Source of the DNA: a virus
Length of the DNA: 38,935 nt
IMG/VR virus record: IMGVR_UViG_3300025641_000021
Span: 1 to 38,935 of that record
Strand: one strand, 5' to 3'
The notes beneath the pieces were generated by a model that was given only the letters and a program-made list of their open reading frames with translations, did not search any database and was not told the DNA's origin. The translations under genes and the position numbers were made by a program. Within the stretch, counting starts at the first letter, position 1. Every line of letters begins with the position of its first letter. Shown piece by piece: positions 8,983 to 38,415 of the stretch.

Positions 8983-8993
8983 ATTACCTCAGA

Positions 8994-16053: not shown

Positions 16054-16752
16054 ATGAAACACGTAAAAACATATGAACACTTTATAGGGGAAGGCAGATC
16101 TGCATATGACGGGTTAGCTTCTAAATTAACTAGAAGTGTATTTAATAAGTGGGTCAAATCATATAAAGGTGGCAACGATACTATAAATTACGGGGATCAA
16201 ATTGAAGAAAGAGGTTTAGAATTTGATATCGAGGCTACTATTCATATAGATAAGAAATTTAAAGGATTTGAAGTATTAGATTCTACTGGCGCTGATGGAA
16301 GAGATGAAGATGATGATGGAGATTTTCAAACACCATATATTGTTATAGATTTTGGCTTAAATCCGGAATGGATACCAGGTGAATGGTCGACTGTTTATTT
16401 TCATTTAGCTGATGTGATTAGACATGAAATGGAACATATTACACAAGACGGTATTGATACTGGAAATTACAGAAGCGGTAAACCCAATGAAGATGATAGT
16501 GAGCTTAGAGCATATATAAAAATGGGTCTTTTACCAAAATCGCAATATTTAATGTTACCTAAAGAGGTAGATGCTAATTTACAAGGACTTAGATATGAAG
16601 CTAAGAAACGAAAAGAATCAATGTCAGACGCAGTTAACCGTTATTTAGATACACAAGAACAAGGCGGAGTTATTAATGGTACTGAAAGAGAAGATGTATT
16701 GGATCTTTGGAGAAGAAGAGCTAAAAAAATAGGTGGAATACCTAAGTTTTAA
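16054..16752 (+). CDS. HExxH zinc metalloprotease-like protein with capsid-targeting-like N-terminus
   Basis: 232 residues. Residues 1-14 (MKHVKTYEHFIGEG) form the recurring tag, ending IGE|G, a good T4 gp21-type cleavage context. Residues 118-135 carry H124-E125-x-x-H128, the zinc-binding and catalytic motif of zincins, in a helix (LADVIRHEMEHITQDG). E171 in LPKEVDANLQG, 43 residues on, could be the third metal ligand as in gluzincins. The C-terminal 60 residues are Arg/Lys-rich and helical. I infer a protease packaged in the head, delivered with DNA and acting on a host protein, or alternatively acting during head maturation. It heads a run of three tagged genes spaced 1-2 nt apart. Confidence 0.75.
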   Translation: MKHVKTYEHFIGEGRSAYDGLASKLTRSVFNKWVKSYKGGNDTINYGDQIEERGLEFDIEATIHIDKKFKGFEVLDSTGADGRDEDDDGDFQTPYIVIDFGLNPEWIPGEWSTVYFHLADVIRHEMEHITQDGIDTGNYRSGKPNEDDSELRAYIKMGLLPKSQYLMLPKEVDANLQGLRYEAKKRKESMSDAVNRYLDTQEQGGVINGTEREDVLDLWRRRAKKIGGIPKF

Positions 16753-16754
16753 TC

Positions 16755-17099
16755 ATGAGAAGTATTAAAATATTTGAAGATTTTATAAAAGAAGGATATG
16801 TTATGCAAGATTTAGAAAAAGAGTTAGGTATAGTTCTTGATCTATGGGATAACGGTGATCATTTAGAATTAGGTAAAATTGAAGTGCCTAAAAATTTAAG
16901 AGGAACCGGAGTAGGTACCAAGGCCATGGAAAGAATTGTAGCATTTGCTGACAAAGAAGGTAAAGATATTAGACTTACACCTAGTACAGATTTCGGCGCT
17001 ACTTCAGTTTCTAGATTAAAGAAATTTTATAAAGGATTTGATTTTGTAAAAAATAAAGATTATAAGTATAAAGATACTATGGTCAGATACGCACAATAA
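16755..17099 (+). CDS. GNAT-type acetyltransferase with capsid-targeting-like N-terminus
   Basis: 114 residues. The tag (MRSIKIFEDFIKEG, ending IKE|G) is followed by a compact GNAT fold: strand ELGKIEVP (38-45), the acetyl-CoA pyrophosphate loop R49-G-T-G-V-G54 and its helix, then strand DIRLTPS and the C-terminal FYKGFDF motif. Expected chemistry: acetyl transfer from acetyl-CoA to an amine; the target is unknown. At about 100 residues after the tag it is a minimal GNAT. It sits between the tagged protease and the tagged Lys-rich protein. T4 packages Alt, an enzyme that modifies host RNA polymerase, so packaged modifying enzymes have precedent. Confidence 0.78.
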   Translation: MRSIKIFEDFIKEGYVMQDLEKELGIVLDLWDNGDHLELGKIEVPKNLRGTGVGTKAMERIVAFADKEGKDIRLTPSTDFGATSVSRLKKFYKGFDFVKNKDYKYKDTMVRYAQ

Positions 17100-17100
17100 T

Positions 17101-17757
17101 ATGAAATATATTAAATTATTTGAGGACTTTGTTAATGAACAAGATAGTTACAATGATTATCCTTCTGCGGCCAAAAAGAATGCACAATTAGCAATTGATT
17201 GGAAAGAAAAATATGGACGAGAAGAGGTCGATGCGGGCACTGCAGTGGGTTGGGCTAGAGCACATCAATTAGCAAAGGGTGAAAATCTATCAGCGGATAC
17301 TGTTAAACGAATGGCGTCATTTAATAGGCATCGTAAAAACTCTACAATATCTTCTGAATTTAAAGATACTCCATGGAAAGATAAAGGTTATGTTTCTTGG
17401 TTAATTTGGGGTGGAGATGAAGGCGTCGATTGGGCACTACAAAAATCAAAAGAAATAGATGAATCAATTCTGGAAAAGAAAAAAAGTAAGCCCAAAACAG
17501 ATAAACAAAAAATAAAAGATTTAACTAAAAAGCAAAAGAAATTATCTGATAAAACTAAAGATATTAAGGATCAGATAAATAAGATGGCAAAGGACGACAA
17601 AAAAGAACCTACTGAAAAATTACAAGCTGCTTTACTAAAAACTCAAATGCAACAAACTTCAGTAGACGGTATGAAAGCGTCAGTTCAAAAGCAACAAATA
17701 GCTTTAAAATCTAAATTAAAAACGGCTAAAAAGAAGGAGTCATCACGTAAGAGTTAA
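17101..17757 (+). CDS. Tagged protein: GWARA...WLIWGG domain plus Lys-rich coiled-coil tail
   Basis: 218 residues. The tag is MKYIKLFEDFVNEQ (ending VNE|Q). Residues 18-118 resemble a phage-associated domain with the pattern ALxWRxExGRGGTAVGxARA...LSxDTVKRMxSFxxRH...YPSxGRIAWLLWGG, known to me from virion and head proteins and of unknown function; here YVSWLIWGGDEGVDWA is the matching end. Residues 120-218 are a Lys-rich coiled coil (KKQKKLSDKTKDIKDQINKM and similar), very basic, which would suit DNA binding inside a capsid. T4 internal proteins are likewise basic. It ends 2 nt before the glycosyltransferase gene. Confidence 0.7.
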   Translation: MKYIKLFEDFVNEQDSYNDYPSAAKKNAQLAIDWKEKYGREEVDAGTAVGWARAHQLAKGENLSADTVKRMASFNRHRKNSTISSEFKDTPWKDKGYVSWLIWGGDEGVDWALQKSKEIDESILEKKKSKPKTDKQKIKDLTKKQKKLSDKTKDIKDQINKMAKDDKKEPTEKLQAALLKTQMQQTSVDGMKASVQKQQIALKSKLKTAKKKESSRKS

Positions 17758-17759
17758 AT

Positions 17760-18668
17760 ATGAAAAGAGAGGGATCAGCGGCTCTTAATAATTTTATTGA
17801 AAGAGCAGAAAATTGGACCAAATGGTTTATAAAGAAATTAAGTGAAAGGCCTAATCACGAATGGCAATACCATGAATTAGATTTTTATAAACACGTGGAT
17901 GTGACATATGTGTTACATGTACCAGAATTTACAGAAAGGAAGACCATAGTATCTGATAGATTATCAGAACAAAAAATTAAATCAGGAAAAACACTATTAG
18001 ATACTACTACTTGGTGGAATGGATTTTATGGGGAAAACCACATAGATCCATTAGTTCATGTACCTGATTTTACATATCATTATTGTTGGTTAACTAACCC
18101 CGATCCATTTCAAAAATTTGGTAAAAAAGAAGATGAGGTAATTGACGTCATGTCAGTTGAACAGATGCAGAACTTTATTATAACCGCATCTCAGGCTGAA
18201 AGCAATATAGCTATGGGACATGTTGATATTCTAAAAGATATTGTAAAGAACGGTCATAAAGCCGCTCTCATAATGGAAGATGATATTACCTTTGGCGCTG
18301 GAGCAATGTGGTTATTAGAATCTATGTTTGAAGAACAATTGCCACATGATTGGGATTTGGTGTATTTAAGTGGACAACCATGTGATTGGGGATTTGAATC
18401 AGAACCTTATTCAAGAGATTTAGATAGAGTTTATAACGGTGTATATTGGATGTCAGGTTTTATAATAAGTCAGTCAGGTGCCCGCAAATTACTAGATAAT
18501 TTACCTGTAATTGGACCAGTTGATGTATGGATTAATCACCGTTTTAGAGATATGAAAGTTTATACAACATTTAAACCATATATTGGTCAAGATAAAGCAC
18601 TTGATAGCTATAATCGTTATTCATTTGCAGATGCTATTCTAAAAGAGAATAATAATAAAGATATATAA
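17760..18668 (+). CDS. GT25-type glycosyltransferase
   Basis: 302 residues. The core motif is LIM-E173-D174-D175, followed by DLVYLSGQP, then GVYWMSGFIISQSGARKLL and GPVDVWINHRF, all in the order seen in family GT25 (LPS and collagen galactosyltransferase-like enzymes). There is no signal peptide or membrane segment, so it is cytosolic. Likely substrates are a virion protein or a surface glycan. There is no recurring tag at its N-terminus (MKREGSAALN). It is the second GT25-like domain in the window, after the PLOD-like fusion at the left edge. The late promoter for the haloperoxidase lies at its 3' end. Confidence 0.8.
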   Translation: MKREGSAALNNFIERAENWTKWFIKKLSERPNHEWQYHELDFYKHVDVTYVLHVPEFTERKTIVSDRLSEQKIKSGKTLLDTTTWWNGFYGENHIDPLVHVPDFTYHYCWLTNPDPFQKFGKKEDEVIDVMSVEQMQNFIITASQAESNIAMGHVDILKDIVKNGHKAALIMEDDITFGAGAMWLLESMFEEQLPHDWDLVYLSGQPCDWGFESEPYSRDLDRVYNGVYWMSGFIISQSGARKLLDNLPVIGPVDVWINHRFRDMKVYTTFKPYIGQDKALDSYNRYSFADAILKENNNKDI

Positions 18669-18687
18669 ATAAAAATAATATAATAAT
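18659..18687 (+). promoter_or_regulatory. T4-type late promoter and leader, copy 1
   Basis: Contains TATAAATA (18664-18671), the exact T4 late -10 consensus, 16 nt before the ATG at 18688. The stretch 18659-18692 is identical over 34 bases to 20247-20280, so promoter, leader and start codon are duplicated. The leader is A/T only, without a Shine-Dalgarno motif. Confidence 0.75.
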
Positions 18688-20232
18688 ATGAAGAATTTAA
18701 GCAATATTAAAAATAATGTTATTAATGCTAGATTCATTCAGTCAAAAAGAAGGGCTGCAGATTCAGAGTCTACTGAACGTGCTGACGATTTAATACGTAA
18801 CGTTTATGAGGGTTTATATGGTAAAGCAATGCGCCATGAAGCCGATGGAACTCCAAATGTATTAGATATTGAAAACACTGTTTTTGCATTACAATCTGGA
18901 AATCAAATTGATTTTGATGCAATTGAATTAGGTGGCGCTAGAAAACAAGCAAACCCACAAGCAGCATTAGCACAAGAATTAACTGGTGCAGATCCAGAAG
19001 GTGTTTCAATGTTAAAAGCACCTGCACTAAATTCAAGAGAGACAGCAGCTGAAATGCTTGAAGTTTATGAAAAAAACATCTTAAGAAATTTATCATTTGC
19101 CGAAATTAGCAGTAACATTGCAAATTCAGATTTAGATCGTGCAATTACAACACTAAACGCATTTGGTAATGATTTTACAGGTCCTAAAATTGATGGTGCT
19201 GTAACTAGAAAATCTTTATTTAGAGGTAATGCACCTGGTGAACTTGTAGGTCCTTACGTAAGCCAATTTATGTTATTAGACGTAAATTTAGGTAATCACA
19301 CAATTGTACAAAAAGGCCCAACAAAAACAGGAGTATACGGTATTACTGAAAACAATTGGTTAGAAATTCAAAAAGGTAATGTCCCTGTTGCACAAACAGT
19401 TGATGCTAACACAAAATACATTTATAACCCTGCTCAATTAGGTTCATTCGTACACGTTGACTTTGTATACCAAGCGCACTTATACACGGCATCTATTTTA
19501 GCTTCTAATGGTGCTGCGAAACAATCTGGCTTCGTATCGCAAGCTAAAGAAGGTGCTTTCGTTGATAATGGTGGTGTTGCTGAAATTGCAGCGGCAATTG
19601 GTGAAATTTCAAGGCATGCGTTGAAAGCGTCATGGGTACAAAAATGGAGAAAGAATTTAAGATTAAGACCAGAAGCAATGGCTGGTAGAATTGCCAAAAT
19701 TGAAGACGGCGTATTAGCTTCTTCATTAGTACACACTGATTTATTTACTGAAGGTGCAAATACAATTGCAGCTGTTAAAGCTCATAATTCTGCACAAGGC
19801 GGCGAAGCTAAAGCATGGTTACCAATCCAGTTTGCTGAAGGTTCTCCAACACACCCGTCTTATCCAGCAGGTCACGCTGCAATCGCAGGCGCTTGTTCAA
19901 CACTGCTTAAAATCTACTTTGCAGACGGTGCATGGTCAGATTTAGGTCTTTCAGTTGTTGAATCATTAAATGGTGATTCTTTATCTGCATATTCTAATTC
20001 AGATAACGATGAGTCAGAAATGACTATCCATGGTGAACTTAATAAACTTGCTTCTAACATGTCAATTGGTAGAAATATGGCAGGTGTTCACTACAGATCA
20101 GATGGTGACCAAGGTATGATTTTAGGTGAGAAGGTAGCGATTCAATACTTCAAAGATATGAAAGAAACTTATAACGTTTCTATTGGTGAAATATCTTTTG
20201 TAGGTTTTGACGGCTCGACAATCACTATTTAA
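18688..20232 (+). CDS. Vanadium-dependent haloperoxidase
   Basis: 514 residues. The C-terminal half has the complete vanadate-binding pattern of bacterial V-haloperoxidases in the PAP2 superfamily: K319 and R327 in KWRKNLRLRPEA, PSYPAGHA with G395 and H396, and R462 and the vanadate-linking H468 in SIGRNMAGVHYRSDG. One position differs from the best-known enzymes: the SGH serine is Ala394 here. Expected reaction: H2O2-dependent oxidation of bromide, chloride or iodide to hypohalous species; a phosphatase activity is the alternative for this fold. There is no secretion signal. It sits behind an exact late promoter, so it is likely made with virion proteins and may be a virion component. Phage copies are not something I can recall as characterised. 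Confidence 0.88.
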   Translation: MKNLSNIKNNVINARFIQSKRRAADSESTERADDLIRNVYEGLYGKAMRHEADGTPNVLDIENTVFALQSGNQIDFDAIELGGARKQANPQAALAQELTGADPEGVSMLKAPALNSRETAAEMLEVYEKNILRNLSFAEISSNIANSDLDRAITTLNAFGNDFTGPKIDGAVTRKSLFRGNAPGELVGPYVSQFMLLDVNLGNHTIVQKGPTKTGVYGITENNWLEIQKGNVPVAQTVDANTKYIYNPAQLGSFVHVDFVYQAHLYTASILASNGAAKQSGFVSQAKEGAFVDNGGVAEIAAAIGEISRHALKASWVQKWRKNLRLRPEAMAGRIAKIEDGVLASSLVHTDLFTEGANTIAAVKAHNSAQGGEAKAWLPIQFAEGSPTHPSYPAGHAAIAGACSTLLKIYFADGAWSDLGLSVVESLNGDSLSAYSNSDNDESEMTIHGELNKLASNMSIGRNMAGVHYRSDGDQGMILGEKVAIQYFKDMKETYNVSIGEISFVGFDGSTITI

Positions 20233-20246
20233 TATGACAAACTCTT

Positions 20247-20275
20247 AGATATATAAATAAAAATAATATAATAAT
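20247..20275 (+). promoter_or_regulatory. T4-type late promoter and leader, copy 2
   Basis: TATAAATA at 20252-20259, 16 nt before the ATG at 20276. This is the second copy of the 34-base identical block, giving the acidic-protein gene its own late promoter and the same leader as the haloperoxidase. Confidence 0.75.
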
Positions 20276-20842
20276 ATGAACAAAAAAATATTATCATTTG
20301 AAGAATACGCTGCTAGTAAAAATCTAGATAGCGCTGAAGAAATCACAGAATCATGTGACGCATGTGGTGAAGATCCATGTGTTTGTGAATCTGAAGAAGT
20401 TGAAGACACAGAAGAAGTTGAAGACACAGAAGAGGTTGAAGACGAGGATGAGGTTGAAGACGAGGATGAAGATGAAGATGAGGATGAAGGCGAAGATGAT
20501 GACGAAGATGAGGATGAAGACGAGGATGAGGATGAAGACGAAGACGAAGATGAGGAAACATTAGAGTCATGTTCTGAACAATTAAAGAAATGTTATGAAT
20601 ATGCTATTAAAGAAGCATGTGATTATGACAAAGATGATTATCCAGATCATACGCTAGAAGGCTACCTTAAAGAAAACGCTGCGTTAGTAGCGGCTTTATC
20701 TGCATCAGCATTGGAACAAGCACACGCTGAGCTTAAAGACGACGAACTTACCATTGAGGTATACGAGTCTTGTTTAAACGCCATGAAAGAATCATACAAT
20801 AAAAAAATTGACGAATTAAAAGAGACTTGGTCATCAAAATAA
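20276..20842 (+). CDS. Highly acidic Cys-containing protein (possible head-core or internal protein)
   Basis: 188 residues in three parts. Residues 1-37 end in a CDACGEDPCVC cluster (C27, C30, C35, C37), which could bind metal. Residues 38-95 are an almost pure Glu/Asp tract. Residues 96-188 are a helical domain with three more Cys (C99, C106, C115) and one near 166. The start MNKKILSFEEYA is a loose relative of the packaging tag. T4 gp67, a prohead-core protein, has a similar acidic tract, so a head-core or DNA-mimic role is possible. It shares its late promoter sequence with the haloperoxidase. Confidence 0.7.
   Translation: MNKKILSFEEYAASKNLDSAEEITESCDACGEDPCVCESEEVEDTEEVEDTEEVEDEDEVEDEDEDEDEDEGEDDDEDEDEDEDEDEDEDEDEETLESCSEQLKKCYEYAIKEACDYDKDDYPDHTLEGYLKENAALVAALSASALEQAHAELKDDELTIEVYESCLNAMKESYNKKIDELKETWSSK
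20387..20560 (+). repeat. Low-complexity GA[A/T/G] (Glu/Asp) codon tract
   Basis: About 58 codons almost all GAA, GAG, GAT or GAC, with an imperfect EEVEDT repeat at the start (20395-20430 region). It creates open frames on other frames and on the complementary strand, which are not genes. Confidence 0.85.
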
Positions 20843-20854
20843 TAATTAAGTATT

Positions 20855-21280
20855 ATGAAACACATAAAACTATATGAAGAATTCATCAACGAAAAACTAA
20901 AGGCTGGTAGAGATGAACCAATCGCAAAAGCTATTATTGCATATAGATATGCTGTAGAAGGTAGTGGTCGCGAAAAAGCACTTTTCGATATGGGGTTGAA
21001 TCCCGAAAGAACTGACTCAAACCCAGATCAGATGGAATATCTTTCAGGTTGGGGTAAAGATGTTATTAAAGCTCTTTCAGGAGCTAGAAGAGTTCCTAGT
21101 AAATATATGACAGGTACTGTAATTACTCTGGCAGCTGATAATGGTAATTCATACTACTTTGATGGTAGCGATTTAGTAGAAGGTGATAAAACTATTGTTA
21201 GAAATGCTTTGAAATTAACTTGGACTCAACTTATTGACGAATTAATCAAGCTAAAAGTTATTGAAGAGCCTAAATACTAA
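20855..21280 (+). CDS. Tagged protein of unknown function, 141 aa
   Basis: 141 residues beginning MKHIKLYEEFINEK, the clearest form of the recurring tag (INE|K). The rest is a mixed helix/strand protein: a helical AIIAYRYAVEGSGREKALFDMG, a middle SGWGKDVIKALSGARRVPSKY, strands TGTVITLAADNGNSYYF and a C-terminal helix TQLIDELIKLKV. No family recognised. It is the last gene of the block closed by the terminator at 21313. By the tag I infer it is a capsid-packaged protein. Confidence 0.7.
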   Translation: MKHIKLYEEFINEKLKAGRDEPIAKAIIAYRYAVEGSGREKALFDMGLNPERTDSNPDQMEYLSGWGKDVIKALSGARRVPSKYMTGTVITLAADNGNSYYFDGSDLVEGDKTIVRNALKLTWTQLIDELIKLKVIEEPKY

Positions 21281-21363: not shown

Positions 21364-21885
21364 ATGCCTAGAATACCAGTAGAAATTATTTATATGCAAA
21401 TAGCATATCAAACAGCTAAACTTAGTTATGCCCAACGTCGTCGCGTTGGTTGTATTATTGTTAAAGATGAACAAATTGTTTCATTTGGTTATAATGGCAC
21501 TCCACATGGATTTAATAATGAGTGCGAAGAAACTTTAGTTGAAACTCAAAATTATGAGAACCCCGATCATGCTCTACATTTAATAGAAGAACATGGATAT
21601 GTATGTGAGAACGGATGTTGTACTAAAGAGACTCAAACTACAAAACGAGAGGTTCTACATGCGGAATCGAATGCTATTACAAAATTAGCAAAATCTACAA
21701 TGACATCTATTGATGCAGACCTATATACTACAACAGCTCCATGTTTTGATTGTGCTAAATTAATTATCCAAGCGGGTATTAAACAAGTATATTATTCAGA
21801 AGATTATAGAGATATGAGTGGCGTTGAATTATTAGAAAAGGCAGGAATCATCACAAAACAAGTTATATGTTGGAACGCGGATTAG
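21364..21885 (+). CDS. cd: dCMP deaminase
   Basis: 173 residues with the zinc-dependent cytidine/deoxycytidylate deaminase motifs: H99-A-E101 (Zn ligand and proton shuttle) and P126-C127-F-D-C130 (Zn ligands). The N-terminal AQRRRVGCIIVKD and GYNGTPHGF are typical of dCMP deaminases, and CENGCC (81-86) may add a structural zinc site. Expected role: dCMP to dUMP, feeding dTMP synthesis for phage DNA. It overlaps the helicase gene by 19 nt. Confidence 0.93.
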   Translation: MPRIPVEIIYMQIAYQTAKLSYAQRRRVGCIIVKDEQIVSFGYNGTPHGFNNECEETLVETQNYENPDHALHLIEEHGYVCENGCCTKETQTTKREVLHAESNAITKLAKSTMTSIDADLYTTTAPCFDCAKLIIQAGIKQVYYSEDYRDMSGVELLEKAGIITKQVICWNAD

Positions 21886-23597
21886 ATCAAATTATCGATA
21901 GCGCATTAGAAAAGAATACATTCGGAAAGGATTTTAAATTTAGAAAGGGTCAAAGAGAGATCATAACTAAAATTTGTGAAACATATCTCAATGATCCTGA
22001 TTCTACATTAGTTATAGATGCACCGACTGGTGCTGGTAAGTCACTGATTGCGATGTGGTCTGCTCATATCCTAAAAGAGTTAGGTAATAGAGGTTATATG
22101 GTTACTAGTGACCTGAGTCTCCAGGATCAATATGAGACTGACTTCTATAAGTATGGTTTGAGATGGCCGTCAATTAAAGGTGTCGATAATTATGAGTGTT
22201 CTGTCAATGGTTTACCATTTTCATTAGGTGATTGTAAACTTAAGGGTATGGGTTATGAGCAAGCTGAGAAATTAAGTTGTTATAATTCATGTGAATATCT
22301 TCAAAACAGAAGAAGAGCAATTGATCAACCCATTTCACTTCTTAATTATTCATTTTGGTTGATTCAGCGAAACTATGTTGAAGCCAAAATGCAACAAGAA
22401 GAACGCACGGTTCCTTTTGAAAAAAGAGATTTTGTATTCTTTGACGAAGCACACCGAATAGATGATATTGTACAGAGTCATTTTAGCCCAAGAATAGAAC
22501 ATTCGCTAGTTGAGAAAATGGTAACTCTAAATAGATTTGCTAGTAAAAATGGATTTCAAGAAGCTAGTTATACTAAAAATAAAATACAATCACTAGTTAA
22601 CCATATGATGAGTGGTGATAAACACGATGTATTTAGTGCGATGAGTGAATTTGAAAGAATTCTTCATGGTTTTGGCAAGGTTAGACAGGTGGCCAATAAG
22701 ATGGCTAAAAAGAGATTTGGAGTTTCAGGTGTGCCTAAAAATTGGCAAACAGCATTTGGTCACTTTGACAGACTTAAAGATGTTCACTGTAAAGTAGAAG
22801 ATTATCTTAGTTTGATTAAAGAAGTTGGAGTTGATAAGATGGTATTAGATCAAAATGAACATGAAGCAAAATTCATGTGTGTTGAAGAAAGTCTAATGAT
22901 TAACAAATATCTACATGAAAAGGCTGGATTCAAAGTTTTTATGAGTGCTACTATAGGTGATCCTCGAGCATTTGTTAGAATAATGGGAATTAAGAATGCT
23001 AAATTTATTAGAATGGATAATGCATTTAATTACGATAAATCACCAGTAGTATTTGTCAATCGACATAAGCTTTCATTTAGAGAACGAGATGAGAGTCTAC
23101 CAAAGGTAGTAGAAATATTGGATCAAATTATAGATAAACACGAGGGTCAACGCGGGGTCATTCACACTGGTTCATATGCGTTCACTAATTACATCAAGCA
23201 AAATAGTAAACATACGTTTAGATTGATGGATTATGAAAACAGTAAGGAAAAGTCTGATATGTTAGAACTTTTTAAAAAGAAAGATGGCGCAGTATTAATG
23301 GGACCGTCTCTTCTAGAAGGTTTAGATTTAAAAGACGATACAAGTCGATTCCAAATATTCTTTAAGGTACCATATCCTTCATTAGGCGATCCATTAATTA
23401 AAGCTAAAATGAAAACATCAAATGAGTGGTATGATTGGAAAACAGGAATTAGTGTTATGCAAGGTGTTGGTAGATCAGTTAGAAGTAAAGATGATTGGGC
23501 CGTAACATATGTGCTGGATGCATGTTTTAGAAGTTTGATAAATAAACCAGGGTTTTTCCCTCCAAGTTTTATGGAAAGAGTCAAAACTATAAAATAA
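21867..23597 (+). CDS. Superfamily 2 helicase, XPD/DinG-like with Fe-S cysteines
   Basis: 576 residues. Walker A is DAPTGAGKS (51-59). Four cysteines (C111, C123, C138, C142) lie between motifs Ia and II in the place of the XPD/DinG 4Fe-4S cluster. The DEAH box is in FFDEAHRID. Motif III-like MSATIG and motif VI QGVGRSVRSKDD complete the set. Expected activity: ATP-dependent 5'-3' DNA unwinding for repair or replication-fork restart. T4 has Dda, UvsW and gp41, but not this Fe-S type, so it is an accessory helicase. It begins inside the dCMP deaminase gene and ends 11 nt before a lipoprotein gene. Confidence 0.9.
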   Translation: MLERGLDQIIDSALEKNTFGKDFKFRKGQREIITKICETYLNDPDSTLVIDAPTGAGKSLIAMWSAHILKELGNRGYMVTSDLSLQDQYETDFYKYGLRWPSIKGVDNYECSVNGLPFSLGDCKLKGMGYEQAEKLSCYNSCEYLQNRRRAIDQPISLLNYSFWLIQRNYVEAKMQQEERTVPFEKRDFVFFDEAHRIDDIVQSHFSPRIEHSLVEKMVTLNRFASKNGFQEASYTKNKIQSLVNHMMSGDKHDVFSAMSEFERILHGFGKVRQVANKMAKKRFGVSGVPKNWQTAFGHFDRLKDVHCKVEDYLSLIKEVGVDKMVLDQNEHEAKFMCVEESLMINKYLHEKAGFKVFMSATIGDPRAFVRIMGIKNAKFIRMDNAFNYDKSPVVFVNRHKLSFRERDESLPKVVEILDQIIDKHEGQRGVIHTGSYAFTNYIKQNSKHTFRLMDYENSKEKSDMLELFKKKDGAVLMGPSLLEGLDLKDDTSRFQIFFKVPYPSLGDPLIKAKMKTSNEWYDWKTGISVMQGVGRSVRSKDDWAVTYVLDACFRSLINKPGFFPPSFMERVKTIK

Positions 23598-23608
23598 AAT
23601 ACACTATT

Positions 23609-24469
23609 ATGAAAAGATTTTTAAATAGATTTAGTACTTCTGATAAAATAACTATACTACTAAAGATTTTAGCTGTGGGTACATTAGCTTTACTTATGAG
23701 TAGTTGCGCTTCTTTAGATTTTAGAATTGCTACATTAAATTACGCTACACAGAGACAATCGTTGAATGTATCTAGTCCAATTGAGGCACAAACGTTTACA
23801 AGCGACTTTGACACATTTAAAAATTTAGATCCTCAGGATTTAGGACTTTCATTTGGTGGAAATTGGGTTCATTGTCGAATTCATGGTTTTCATGATTTAA
23901 ACAATTGGACAGATTTTACTTATAATCCATATTGGTGTAGACCTAGTAATGGTTTTATGAGAGCGTCTTTATATAACTGGAACTGGGGAGGTTACAATTA
24001 TTGGAATAATCAAATATGGGGATATACTCCATATAGATGGTCTCCGTTTGGATACGATAGATGGGGATATAACAATTGGATGGGTAATGTTTATTATGGT
24101 AATGGGTGGAATAACTATTATGGATGGAACAATAATTACATACCATACCGTTGGAGAAGATCAAATATAAACGGTAGGAGAGGTAATGTTGCACCTAGAA
24201 CAAGATCAACTAGAGTTATTAGAACTACGCCTACAAGAACTCGAACAATACCAAACAATGTTAGACCAACTAGGACACCAATTCCAAATAATGTAAGAAC
24301 TATTAGAACACCTATAAGAAGATCTGACGTAAAACCGCCAATAAGAACAAACACAAGACCGGTTAATAATACACCTAATAATATTAGGCCTGTTAGAACA
24401 AATACTAGGACGACTACTCAGCCTAGAAGATCTAGACCAACAAATGTAAAGAAAGACAATTTAAAATAA
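23609..24469 (+). CDS. Lipoprotein with W/Y/N/G-rich middle and basic Thr-Arg tail
   Basis: 286 residues. A signal peptide with a basic N-region (MKRFLNRF), hydrophobic core 16-30 and lipobox LMSS-C33 directs lipid attachment at C33. Residues 90-180 are very rich in Trp, Tyr, Asn and Gly (for example YNWNWGGYNYWNNQIWGY). Residues 185-286 are a basic, Thr/Arg/Pro/Asn-rich tail with repeats of the type IPNNVRPTRTP. This composition resembles outer-membrane lipoproteins of Bacteroidota and suggests a gene taken from the host. Possible roles are surface modification or superinfection exclusion during infection; nothing decides. Confidence 0.75.
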   Translation: MKRFLNRFSTSDKITILLKILAVGTLALLMSSCASLDFRIATLNYATQRQSLNVSSPIEAQTFTSDFDTFKNLDPQDLGLSFGGNWVHCRIHGFHDLNNWTDFTYNPYWCRPSNGFMRASLYNWNWGGYNYWNNQIWGYTPYRWSPFGYDRWGYNNWMGNVYYGNGWNNYYGWNNNYIPYRWRRSNINGRRGNVAPRTRSTRVIRTTPTRTRTIPNNVRPTRTPIPNNVRTIRTPIRRSDVKPPIRTNTRPVNNTPNNIRPVRTNTRTTTQPRRSRPTNVKKDNLK

Positions 24470-37107: not shown

Positions 37108-38415
37108 ATGCAAAAATTAAATATAGATTCTTCAAGGGAATCAATTTTGAATGCGGCACTCATGGGTGTTGAATTTGAATTCTATTCTAATATCGATCTA
37201 GAAGCTACCAAAAAATCTTTGGCTCAGCTTCTAGATCGTAAGATTAGGTTGGAAGACAAAGCTCATTCTGATTTCCAACCATCTGCTGAAGAATTTAAAA
37301 TAGAACCAGATATGTCGGGTGGAAAAGGTCTAATGGAACTAGTTACAGGACCTATTCCGTATAGAAATGCTAGAATAGTTGTAAACAAAGTTTTAGATTG
37401 GATATCTAAAAACGGATACACTAACGATAGAGCATCAATTCATGTTAATTTATCATTCGATAAAAAATTCTTAGAAGATAAAGATCTTATTTCTAGAATG
37501 AACGTTCTTAAGTTTATTTTAGAATTTGATGAAAAACAAGTTTATAAATTCTTTCCTGATAGAGAAAATTCTGCATACGCAAAGAGTGTCAAATGGGTAA
37601 TGCCAAAATGGGAAGCATTTCATTTTGACGCAAATCAAATTGCATCTAATAATTTTAAATTTGCCGATACTAAATACTATGGAATAAACTTTTCAAAGAA
37701 GGAAAAGAATTATTTAGAATTCAGATACTTAGGAGGTCAAGATTATGAAAAGAAAGTTGATAATATACTTTATTTAACTGAGAGTTTTTTAATGCAAATG
37801 TGGCATTCTTGTAATGATCCTAGATTTACAGCTGAAAATAAAATAGAACTTCAGAGAATTTTAAATAAAAATAAACCTATTTCAGAGGCACTTAAAAATT
37901 ATACTAATGTCAATAAACATTGGCCTAATATAGAAATACTAGTAGATTTACAAAGTAATCCTACTATTATTAATGTACACTGGGAAAGATTTAAACACAG
38001 AGTTGTTGATTTATTGGTCAATGGTTCTATGGAAGCAGGAATTATAAACTACGATTCAGATTATGGTGCGGTTCAGGTGAAAGATGGAAAGTTTCCAACT
38101 GTTTATTTACTAGAAAATTTTGAATTCATAGACTGTGAATTAACAGGTAATATAACCAACTGTAGTTTTTATAATTGTGAAGTTAGCGGTTCGGCTATTA
38201 TGATGTGCAGTCTATACAAAGGTACTAAAATAAAGGAGTCTAAAGTAGAGTCATGTTATACACATGGAAGTTGTGAATTAACCAACTGTTATGTTGCCGG
38301 AAGAGACACTATGTTTAAAGGTAAAATGATAGGTGGAATATTTAGAGAGGGCTTTAGAAGTAAAGACGCTAGATTTGAAGAAACTGAAATAGTAGTAAGT
38401 AAAAAAATAAACTAA
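37108..38415 (+). CDS. Amidoligase-like enzyme with C-terminal beta-helix-type repeats
   Basis: 435 residues. Residues 15-220 fit the amidoligase family (COOH-NH2 ligases of the glutamine-synthetase/GCS fold): MGVEFEFYSN at 19-28 for metal binding, SGGKGLMELVTGPIPY, and a late DRASIHVNLSF motif. Family knowledge: these form amide bonds, often in peptide or cell-wall-like modification, and phage members are known. Residues 330-430 carry repeats spaced by about 6-8 residues (FIDCELTGNITNCSFYNCEV, then SAIMMCSLYKGTKI), like a right-handed beta-helix or pentapeptide-type solenoid, Cys-rich. Such a fusion could anchor the enzyme in a virion. It is close to the S1 gene and ahead of another structural gene. 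Confidence 0.7.
   Translation: MQKLNIDSSRESILNAALMGVEFEFYSNIDLEATKKSLAQLLDRKIRLEDKAHSDFQPSAEEFKIEPDMSGGKGLMELVTGPIPYRNARIVVNKVLDWISKNGYTNDRASIHVNLSFDKKFLEDKDLISRMNVLKFILEFDEKQVYKFFPDRENSAYAKSVKWVMPKWEAFHFDANQIASNNFKFADTKYYGINFSKKEKNYLEFRYLGGQDYEKKVDNILYLTESFLMQMWHSCNDPRFTAENKIELQRILNKNKPISEALKNYTNVNKHWPNIEILVDLQSNPTIINVHWERFKHRVVDLLVNGSMEAGIINYDSDYGAVQVKDGKFPTVYLLENFEFIDCELTGNITNCSFYNCEVSGSAIMMCSLYKGTKIKESKVESCYTHGSCELTNCYVAGRDTMFKGKMIGGIFREGFRSKDARFEETEIVVSKKIN

Follow-up and report, generated by a model that had tools for sequence, protein, structure and literature searches.

The window, as we call the whole 38,935-nucleotide stretch of viral DNA analysed here (IMG/VR record IMGVR_UViG_3300025641_000021), carries a haloperoxidase gene between a gene for a family-25 glycosyltransferase and one for an acidic protein, in the following arrangement.

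Organisation of the locus

16054-16752, + strand: 232-aa protein with capsid-targeting-like start MKHVKTYEHFIGE and a HEMEH motif suggesting a metallopeptidase; no Pfam match
16755-17099, + strand: GNAT-like protein with capsid-targeting-like start MRSIKIFEDFIKE
17101-17757, + strand: 218-aa protein with capsid-targeting-like start MKYIKLFEDFVNE
17760-18668, + strand: glycosyltransferase family 25, the upstream neighbour (PF01755 above cut-off)
18659-18692, + strand: 34-nt leader with TATAAATA (18664-18671), a late-promoter candidate, identical to the next gene's leader
18688-20232, + strand: vanadium-dependent haloperoxidase, bromoperoxidase type, 514 aa (ORF from ATG to TAA; assigned by sequence and fold)
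20247-20280, + strand: second copy of the 34-nt leader, ahead of the acidic-protein gene (by sequence identity)
20276-20842, + strand: very acidic protein, 188 aa, with capsid-targeting-like start MNKKILSFEEYA and the same leader as the haloperoxidase
20855-21280, + strand: 141-aa protein with capsid-targeting-like start MKHIKLYEEFINE

The first-pass annotation had given the haloperoxidase gene an exact T4-type late promoter. The octamer is indeed present, but it occurs in the window (33% GC) at chance level, with 10 copies found against 9.5 expected, and was rejected as late-promoter evidence on its own; we therefore rely on the identical 34-nt leader instead, which is the better evidence for late expression. 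Elsewhere in the window a repeated upstream element, TGGTATATTAGTAGTATAATTAAA, is found at 8992, 10233 and 12618, lying within a 47-nt repeat at the first two positions; it resembles an early or middle promoter of sigma70 type and in this differs from the leader of the haloperoxidase. Shine-Dalgarno sequences are seen at few gene starts, and the upstream regions are rich in A/T, a feature also of Bacteroidota that may be a clue to the host. The window contains no tRNA gene, and at 23609-24469 it encodes a predicted lipoprotein that is rich in N, Y, W and G and then in R, T and P.

Five genes of the neighbourhood (beginning at 16054, 16755, 17101, 20276 and 20855) have MKHIKLYEEFINE-type leaders resembling T4 capsid-targeting peptides, and to this extent the head-packaged context proposed by the first-pass annotation stands. 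The haloperoxidase itself has an N-terminus, MKNLSNIKNNVINARF, that is unlike these starts, and because it is without its neighbours' leader its own packaging into the head is unsupported. Starts of the same kind are seen at seven genes of the window, those five together with the genes at 1535 and 4914, and the seven products may be head-packed cargo, the GNAT-like protein and the possible metallopeptidase with the HEMEH motif among them.

The window is probably a piece of a very large phage, because its nearest relatives are phages of 462-735 kb: its helicase is nearest to that of a 462 kb uncultured phage and a late-region protein to those of uncultured phages of 462 to 735 kb. The closest relatives of the segments at 21867-23597 and 37108-38415 are LR756500-LR756504, uncultured phages in the same size range.

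Family assignment and predicted fold

The haloperoxidase gene encodes a member of the vanadium bromoperoxidase (VBPO) subfamily of algal and cyanobacterial type. With phmmer, the protein matches the VBPOs of Corallina, Acaryochloris and Ascophyllum at E 1e-52 to 2e-41, those of Corallina being the closest solved structures by sequence (E 1.3e-52), and a profile built from the phage copies described below reaches a Corallina VBPO at E 5.9e-71 and the bacterial iodoperoxidase 4cit at merely E 0.0055. The gene is easily overlooked, because Pfam gives only a sub-threshold match to PAP2 (PF01569; 23.2 bits against a cut-off of 27.2), while NCBIfam and PHROGs return no match for the protein. Membership of PAP2 would call for PSGH and for K-X6-RP, which is the Lys-to-Arg spacing of PAP2 phosphatases; the window protein has PAGH and K-X7-RP, the latter being the spacing of VBPOs.

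An AlphaFold2 model built on the phage alignment (mean pLDDT 71, pTM 0.80) has the whole two-bundle fold of vanadium haloperoxidases (VHPOs), although it is weak, with pLDDT under 50, at residues 380-392 and 462-467, stretches that hold part of the active site. VIA-align superposes the model on the Ascophyllum VBPO 1qi9 with Z 34.4 and 2.7 A over 463 of 555 residues, and gives Z 29-33.5 for the remaining VBPOs, 7.8-13.7 for chloroperoxidases, iodoperoxidases and other VHPOs, and at most 10.7 for acid phosphatases; the Foldseek ranking is concordant. The first-pass annotation had named a placement with PAP2 phosphatases only as one result that would overturn its reading, and this is not what we find. 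PAP2 phosphatases were ruled out as the nearest family by the Pfam score and by this gulf in Z between VBPO and phosphatase structures. Among viral models (BFVD), full-length matches come only from giant viruses of protists and are labelled PAP2 or uncharacterised, the VBPO-like entries being A0A3G5AI90 (Sylvanvirus), A0A1V0SGK0 (Hokovirus) and A0A5K0U6L7 (Yasminevirus).

The vanadate site

Three stretches of the gene hold the site residues, each located by alignment.

19633-19668, + strand: codons W316 to R327, with the halide-specificity position W316 and vanadate-site K319 and R327
19852-19875, + strand: codons H389 to H396, the vanadate-site motif HPSYPAGH, in which Ala394 replaces Ser
20071-20091, + strand: codons R462 to H468, RNMAGVH, with the vanadate ligand H468

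The first-pass list of site residues (K319, R327, A394, G395, H396, R462 and H468) proves correct when aligned with the Ascophyllum nodosum VBPO, and we add two to it. K319, R327, G395, H396, R462 and H468 align with K341, R349, G417, H418, R480 and H486 of that enzyme, the added H389 and W316 match H411 and W338, and A394 stands opposite S416, the serine of the SGH motif. The numbers of W338, K341 and R349 were read from the alignment; H411, S416, G417, H418, R480 and H486 also follow the numbering that we take the enzyme to have. The W, K, R, H, G, H, R and H of the site, H389 included, are identical in all 12 phage copies.

All 12 phage copies have Ala where the SGH serine would be, two algal sequences have Ser, and the four homologues from plasmids have either Ala or Gly. 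Membership of the wider subfamily thus does not strictly require the serine. It had been suggested that the change from Ser to Ala might affect halide choice; the Ala itself is confirmed, but it is not peculiar to the window protein, and its fixation in the phage copies, together with the Ala or Gly of the plasmid homologues, makes it weak evidence for such a shift. Judging from these alignments, the replacement is a property of the phage clade and not a defect of the window copy, and it is perhaps also a trait of the clade's bacterial kin. In the fungal enzyme the SGH serine hydrogen-bonds vanadate (PMC10278073). At the position equivalent to W316 chlorinating enzymes have Trp, and in Corallina pilulifera a change from Arg to Trp or Phe increased chlorination (PMC11871015).

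The fixed Ala could also mark a loss of peroxidase function, leaving a PAP2-type phosphatase or a vanadate or phosphate binder derived from a haloperoxidase; some plasmid homologues are without the SGH histidine (GGA, AGL), and phosphatase activity has been reported for a vanadium chloroperoxidase (PMC4859513). We consider such a loss improbable, since the other site residues, H389, H396 and W316 among them, are invariant in 12 diverged copies and both the VBPO-like Lys-to-Arg spacing and the entire two-bundle fold are retained. Moreover, PAP2 phosphatases also have the SGH serine, and its loss therefore does not point to them. The central claim of the first-pass annotation, a vanadium-dependent haloperoxidase in a phage genome, is upheld by sequence, fold, site residues and late-type leader, and the enzyme is very probably an active one.

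Distribution among phages

Scans of viral contigs recovered the gene from eleven additional contigs (L001, L002, L005-L012 and L017) at 45-61% identity; there was no relative among 50,697 phage records or PHROGs, and no INPHARED phage matched. Two scans of 84,980 bacterial species found no bacterial relative, using phage-derived motifs that would miss diverged homologues. These eleven include T4-like, siphovirus-like, podovirus-like and giant phages, which have little else in common, and several bear clear phage hallmark genes. L001 has a head protein gene and L007, with the same gene layout, a portal gene; L005 carries a head-tail adaptor and a tape measure, and L006 a DNA polymerase, ClpP, GroEL and an endolysin. 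In L008 the portal is of podovirus type and is accompanied by a head protein and an internal virion protein. The portal, maturation protease and major head protein of L012 match phrog_213, phrog_207 and phrog_138, which we take to be T4 gp20, gp21 and gp23, and L011 and L017 share its layout.

In a phylogenetic tree a branch with 100/100 support separates the 12 phage proteins from the six other sequences, four encoded on plasmids and two from algae; this non-phage sample is small, with an interrupted plasmid gene entered as its 3' piece only, and an undiscovered bacterial sister is therefore possible. Seven pairs of phage copies have dN/dS of 0.09-0.17, indicating purifying selection, the mark of a working protein. 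The gene seems to be cargo that moves between phages, because the window and L006 otherwise share little and because the tree groups the window copy with those of L001 and L007, phages of a different kind. The haloperoxidases of the window and L006 are 61% identical, and what these two otherwise share is an endonuclease (48%, on L023, which belongs to the same contig as L006); when the window was compared for synteny with L006, L010, L012 and a 45-kb region of LR756500, the only genes shared beyond the haloperoxidase were a helicase (LR756500) and this endonuclease.

At eight of the 12 loci the gene lies inside a head or fibre module. It is 3' of the major head protein gene in L001, L007 and the T4-like L011, L012 and L017, is flanked by genes for coiled-coil, fibre-like proteins in L002 and L008, these proteins being homologous between the two contigs (E 1e-15 to 1e-19), and precedes the head-tail adaptor in L005. 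In L006, L009 and L010 it is outside the structural module, near stress and metabolic genes (ClpP, GroEL, Hsp20, IMPDH/GMP reductase). A placement among head and fibre genes would be consistent with a structural reuse of the fold, the protein serving as a non-catalytic part of the capsid or fibres; we regard this as very improbable, given the invariant catalytic residues, the low dN/dS and the three loci at which the gene stands apart from the structural module.

Proposed mode of action

The best explanation overall, and in our estimation a probable one, is an intact haloperoxidase that would be made late and act outside the cell, either on the virion or after release at lysis. This explanation is based on family, fold, site residues, a clade that is phage-only in the sample, purifying selection and gene position, and it is from these that we infer that the enzyme is active, which halide it uses, when it is expressed, where it acts and what it brings the phage. 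Weighing against it are the Ala in place of the vanadate-bonding serine, the three loci outside the structural module, the N-terminus of the window copy, which is not of the capsid-targeting-like type, and the weakly modelled stretches of the active site. Vanadate would be held by H468 together with K319, R327, G395, H396 and R462; hydrogen peroxide and the bound vanadate would form peroxovanadate, as in VBPOs, and this would oxidise a halide, most likely bromide or iodide, to a diffusible hypohalous acid. In algal and cyanobacterial VHPOs the hypohalous acid is generally released and freely diffusible (PMC8407465).

Synthesis would take place in the cytoplasm late in infection, and no signal peptide is visible in the translated 514-aa protein. 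Since the protein is without a visible signal peptide and its context is that of late and virion genes, we place its action outside the cell, where it would be attached to the virion with the head or tail fibres or freed at lysis, and where vanadate and, as we assume, halide would be at hand. The hypohalous acid would then attack surfaces, signals or competitors near the lysed cell by oxidation or halogenation. The present data do not favour any one of the roles that the first-pass annotation proposed, namely action on quorum signals, protection from hydrogen peroxide and killing of competitors. For extracellular or virion-linked action as such we see slightly better than an even chance. More tentatively, some phage particles might carry an active halogenating enzyme with the head or tail fibres and make hypohalous acid from dissolved halide and hydrogen peroxide. 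A virion-borne enzyme of this kind, for which no counterpart is known in phages, might serve as a redox weapon, quench signals or cross-link the virion.

The want of a visible signal peptide would also suit an active enzyme that stays inside the infected cell, using up hydrogen peroxide or oxidising host signals or metabolites in late infection, and the three copies near ClpP, GroEL, Hsp20 and IMPDH/GMP reductase genes are consistent with such a role. Vanadate and halide are scarcer in the cytoplasm, however, hypohalous acid would damage replication there, and the majority of copies lie among virion genes, so that we think intracellular action unlikely. Of the alternatives we rank it first, ahead of lost activity, with a purely structural role last. 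A distinct clade spread across several kinds of tailed phage and kept intact by selection would place phages among the halogenating entities, and it would raise the new question of what benefit a phage draws from a bleach-making enzyme.

Comparison with known systems

Algae, fungi, cyanobacteria and other bacteria are the known sources of VHPOs, enzymes whose products are hypohalous acids and volatile organohalogens. The first-pass annotation named no characterised phage example, and the literature likewise yielded no phage vanadium haloperoxidase in a search that covered few subscription journals and no preprints, so that this absence is weak evidence. The name haloperoxidase is also applied to cofactor-free alpha/beta hydrolases, and the haloperoxidase-like protein of mycobacteriophage TM4 is, we presume, probably of another enzyme class. 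That protein is named in a review (PMC9317374).

The PAP2 proteins of Sylvanvirus, Hokovirus and Yasminevirus resemble the window protein over its whole length in predicted fold (TM about 0.8), but belong to protist viruses rather than phages and have 24-29% identity. The haloperoxidase-like proteins on plasmids of Rhizobium phaseoli, Microvirga, Polymorphobacter and Pseudanabaena are of the same subfamily and likewise have Ala or Gly for the serine; they differ in being only about 29-33% identical, in that two are without the SGH histidine and in that a transposase insertion interrupts one of them. On the Rhizobium phaseoli plasmid, defence genes of AbiGi and Shedu type are found at a distance of about 0.8-2.7 kb from the VBPO-like gene (L014, 5001-6398), which has GGH for SGH. 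The bacterial and fungal chloroperoxidases and iodoperoxidases (3w35, 1vnc, 4cit) share superfamily and vanadate site, but only about 230-260 of their residues are alignable (Z 7.8-13.7).

Closer to the phage enzyme is AmVHPO of the cyanobacterium Acaryochloris marina (5lpc), a member of the same subfamily (Z about 29) that differs in having R425 at the position of W316; the wild-type enzyme chiefly brominates (PMC11871015). At this position the phage copy has Trp, as does Ascophyllum, whereas Corallina has Arg. A diverged enzyme set in which Ala and Trp are fixed at two key positions also lends itself to studies of halide choice. The strongest likeness is to the VBPOs of Ascophyllum nodosum (1qi9) and Corallina (1qhb and 1up8), with which the phage protein shares fold (Z 32-34), vanadate site, K-X7-RP, the histidine H411/H389 and the C-terminal strand region; unlike them, it has Ala for Ser416, is 514 rather than 555-597 residues long at 25-33% identity, and is encoded by a phage.
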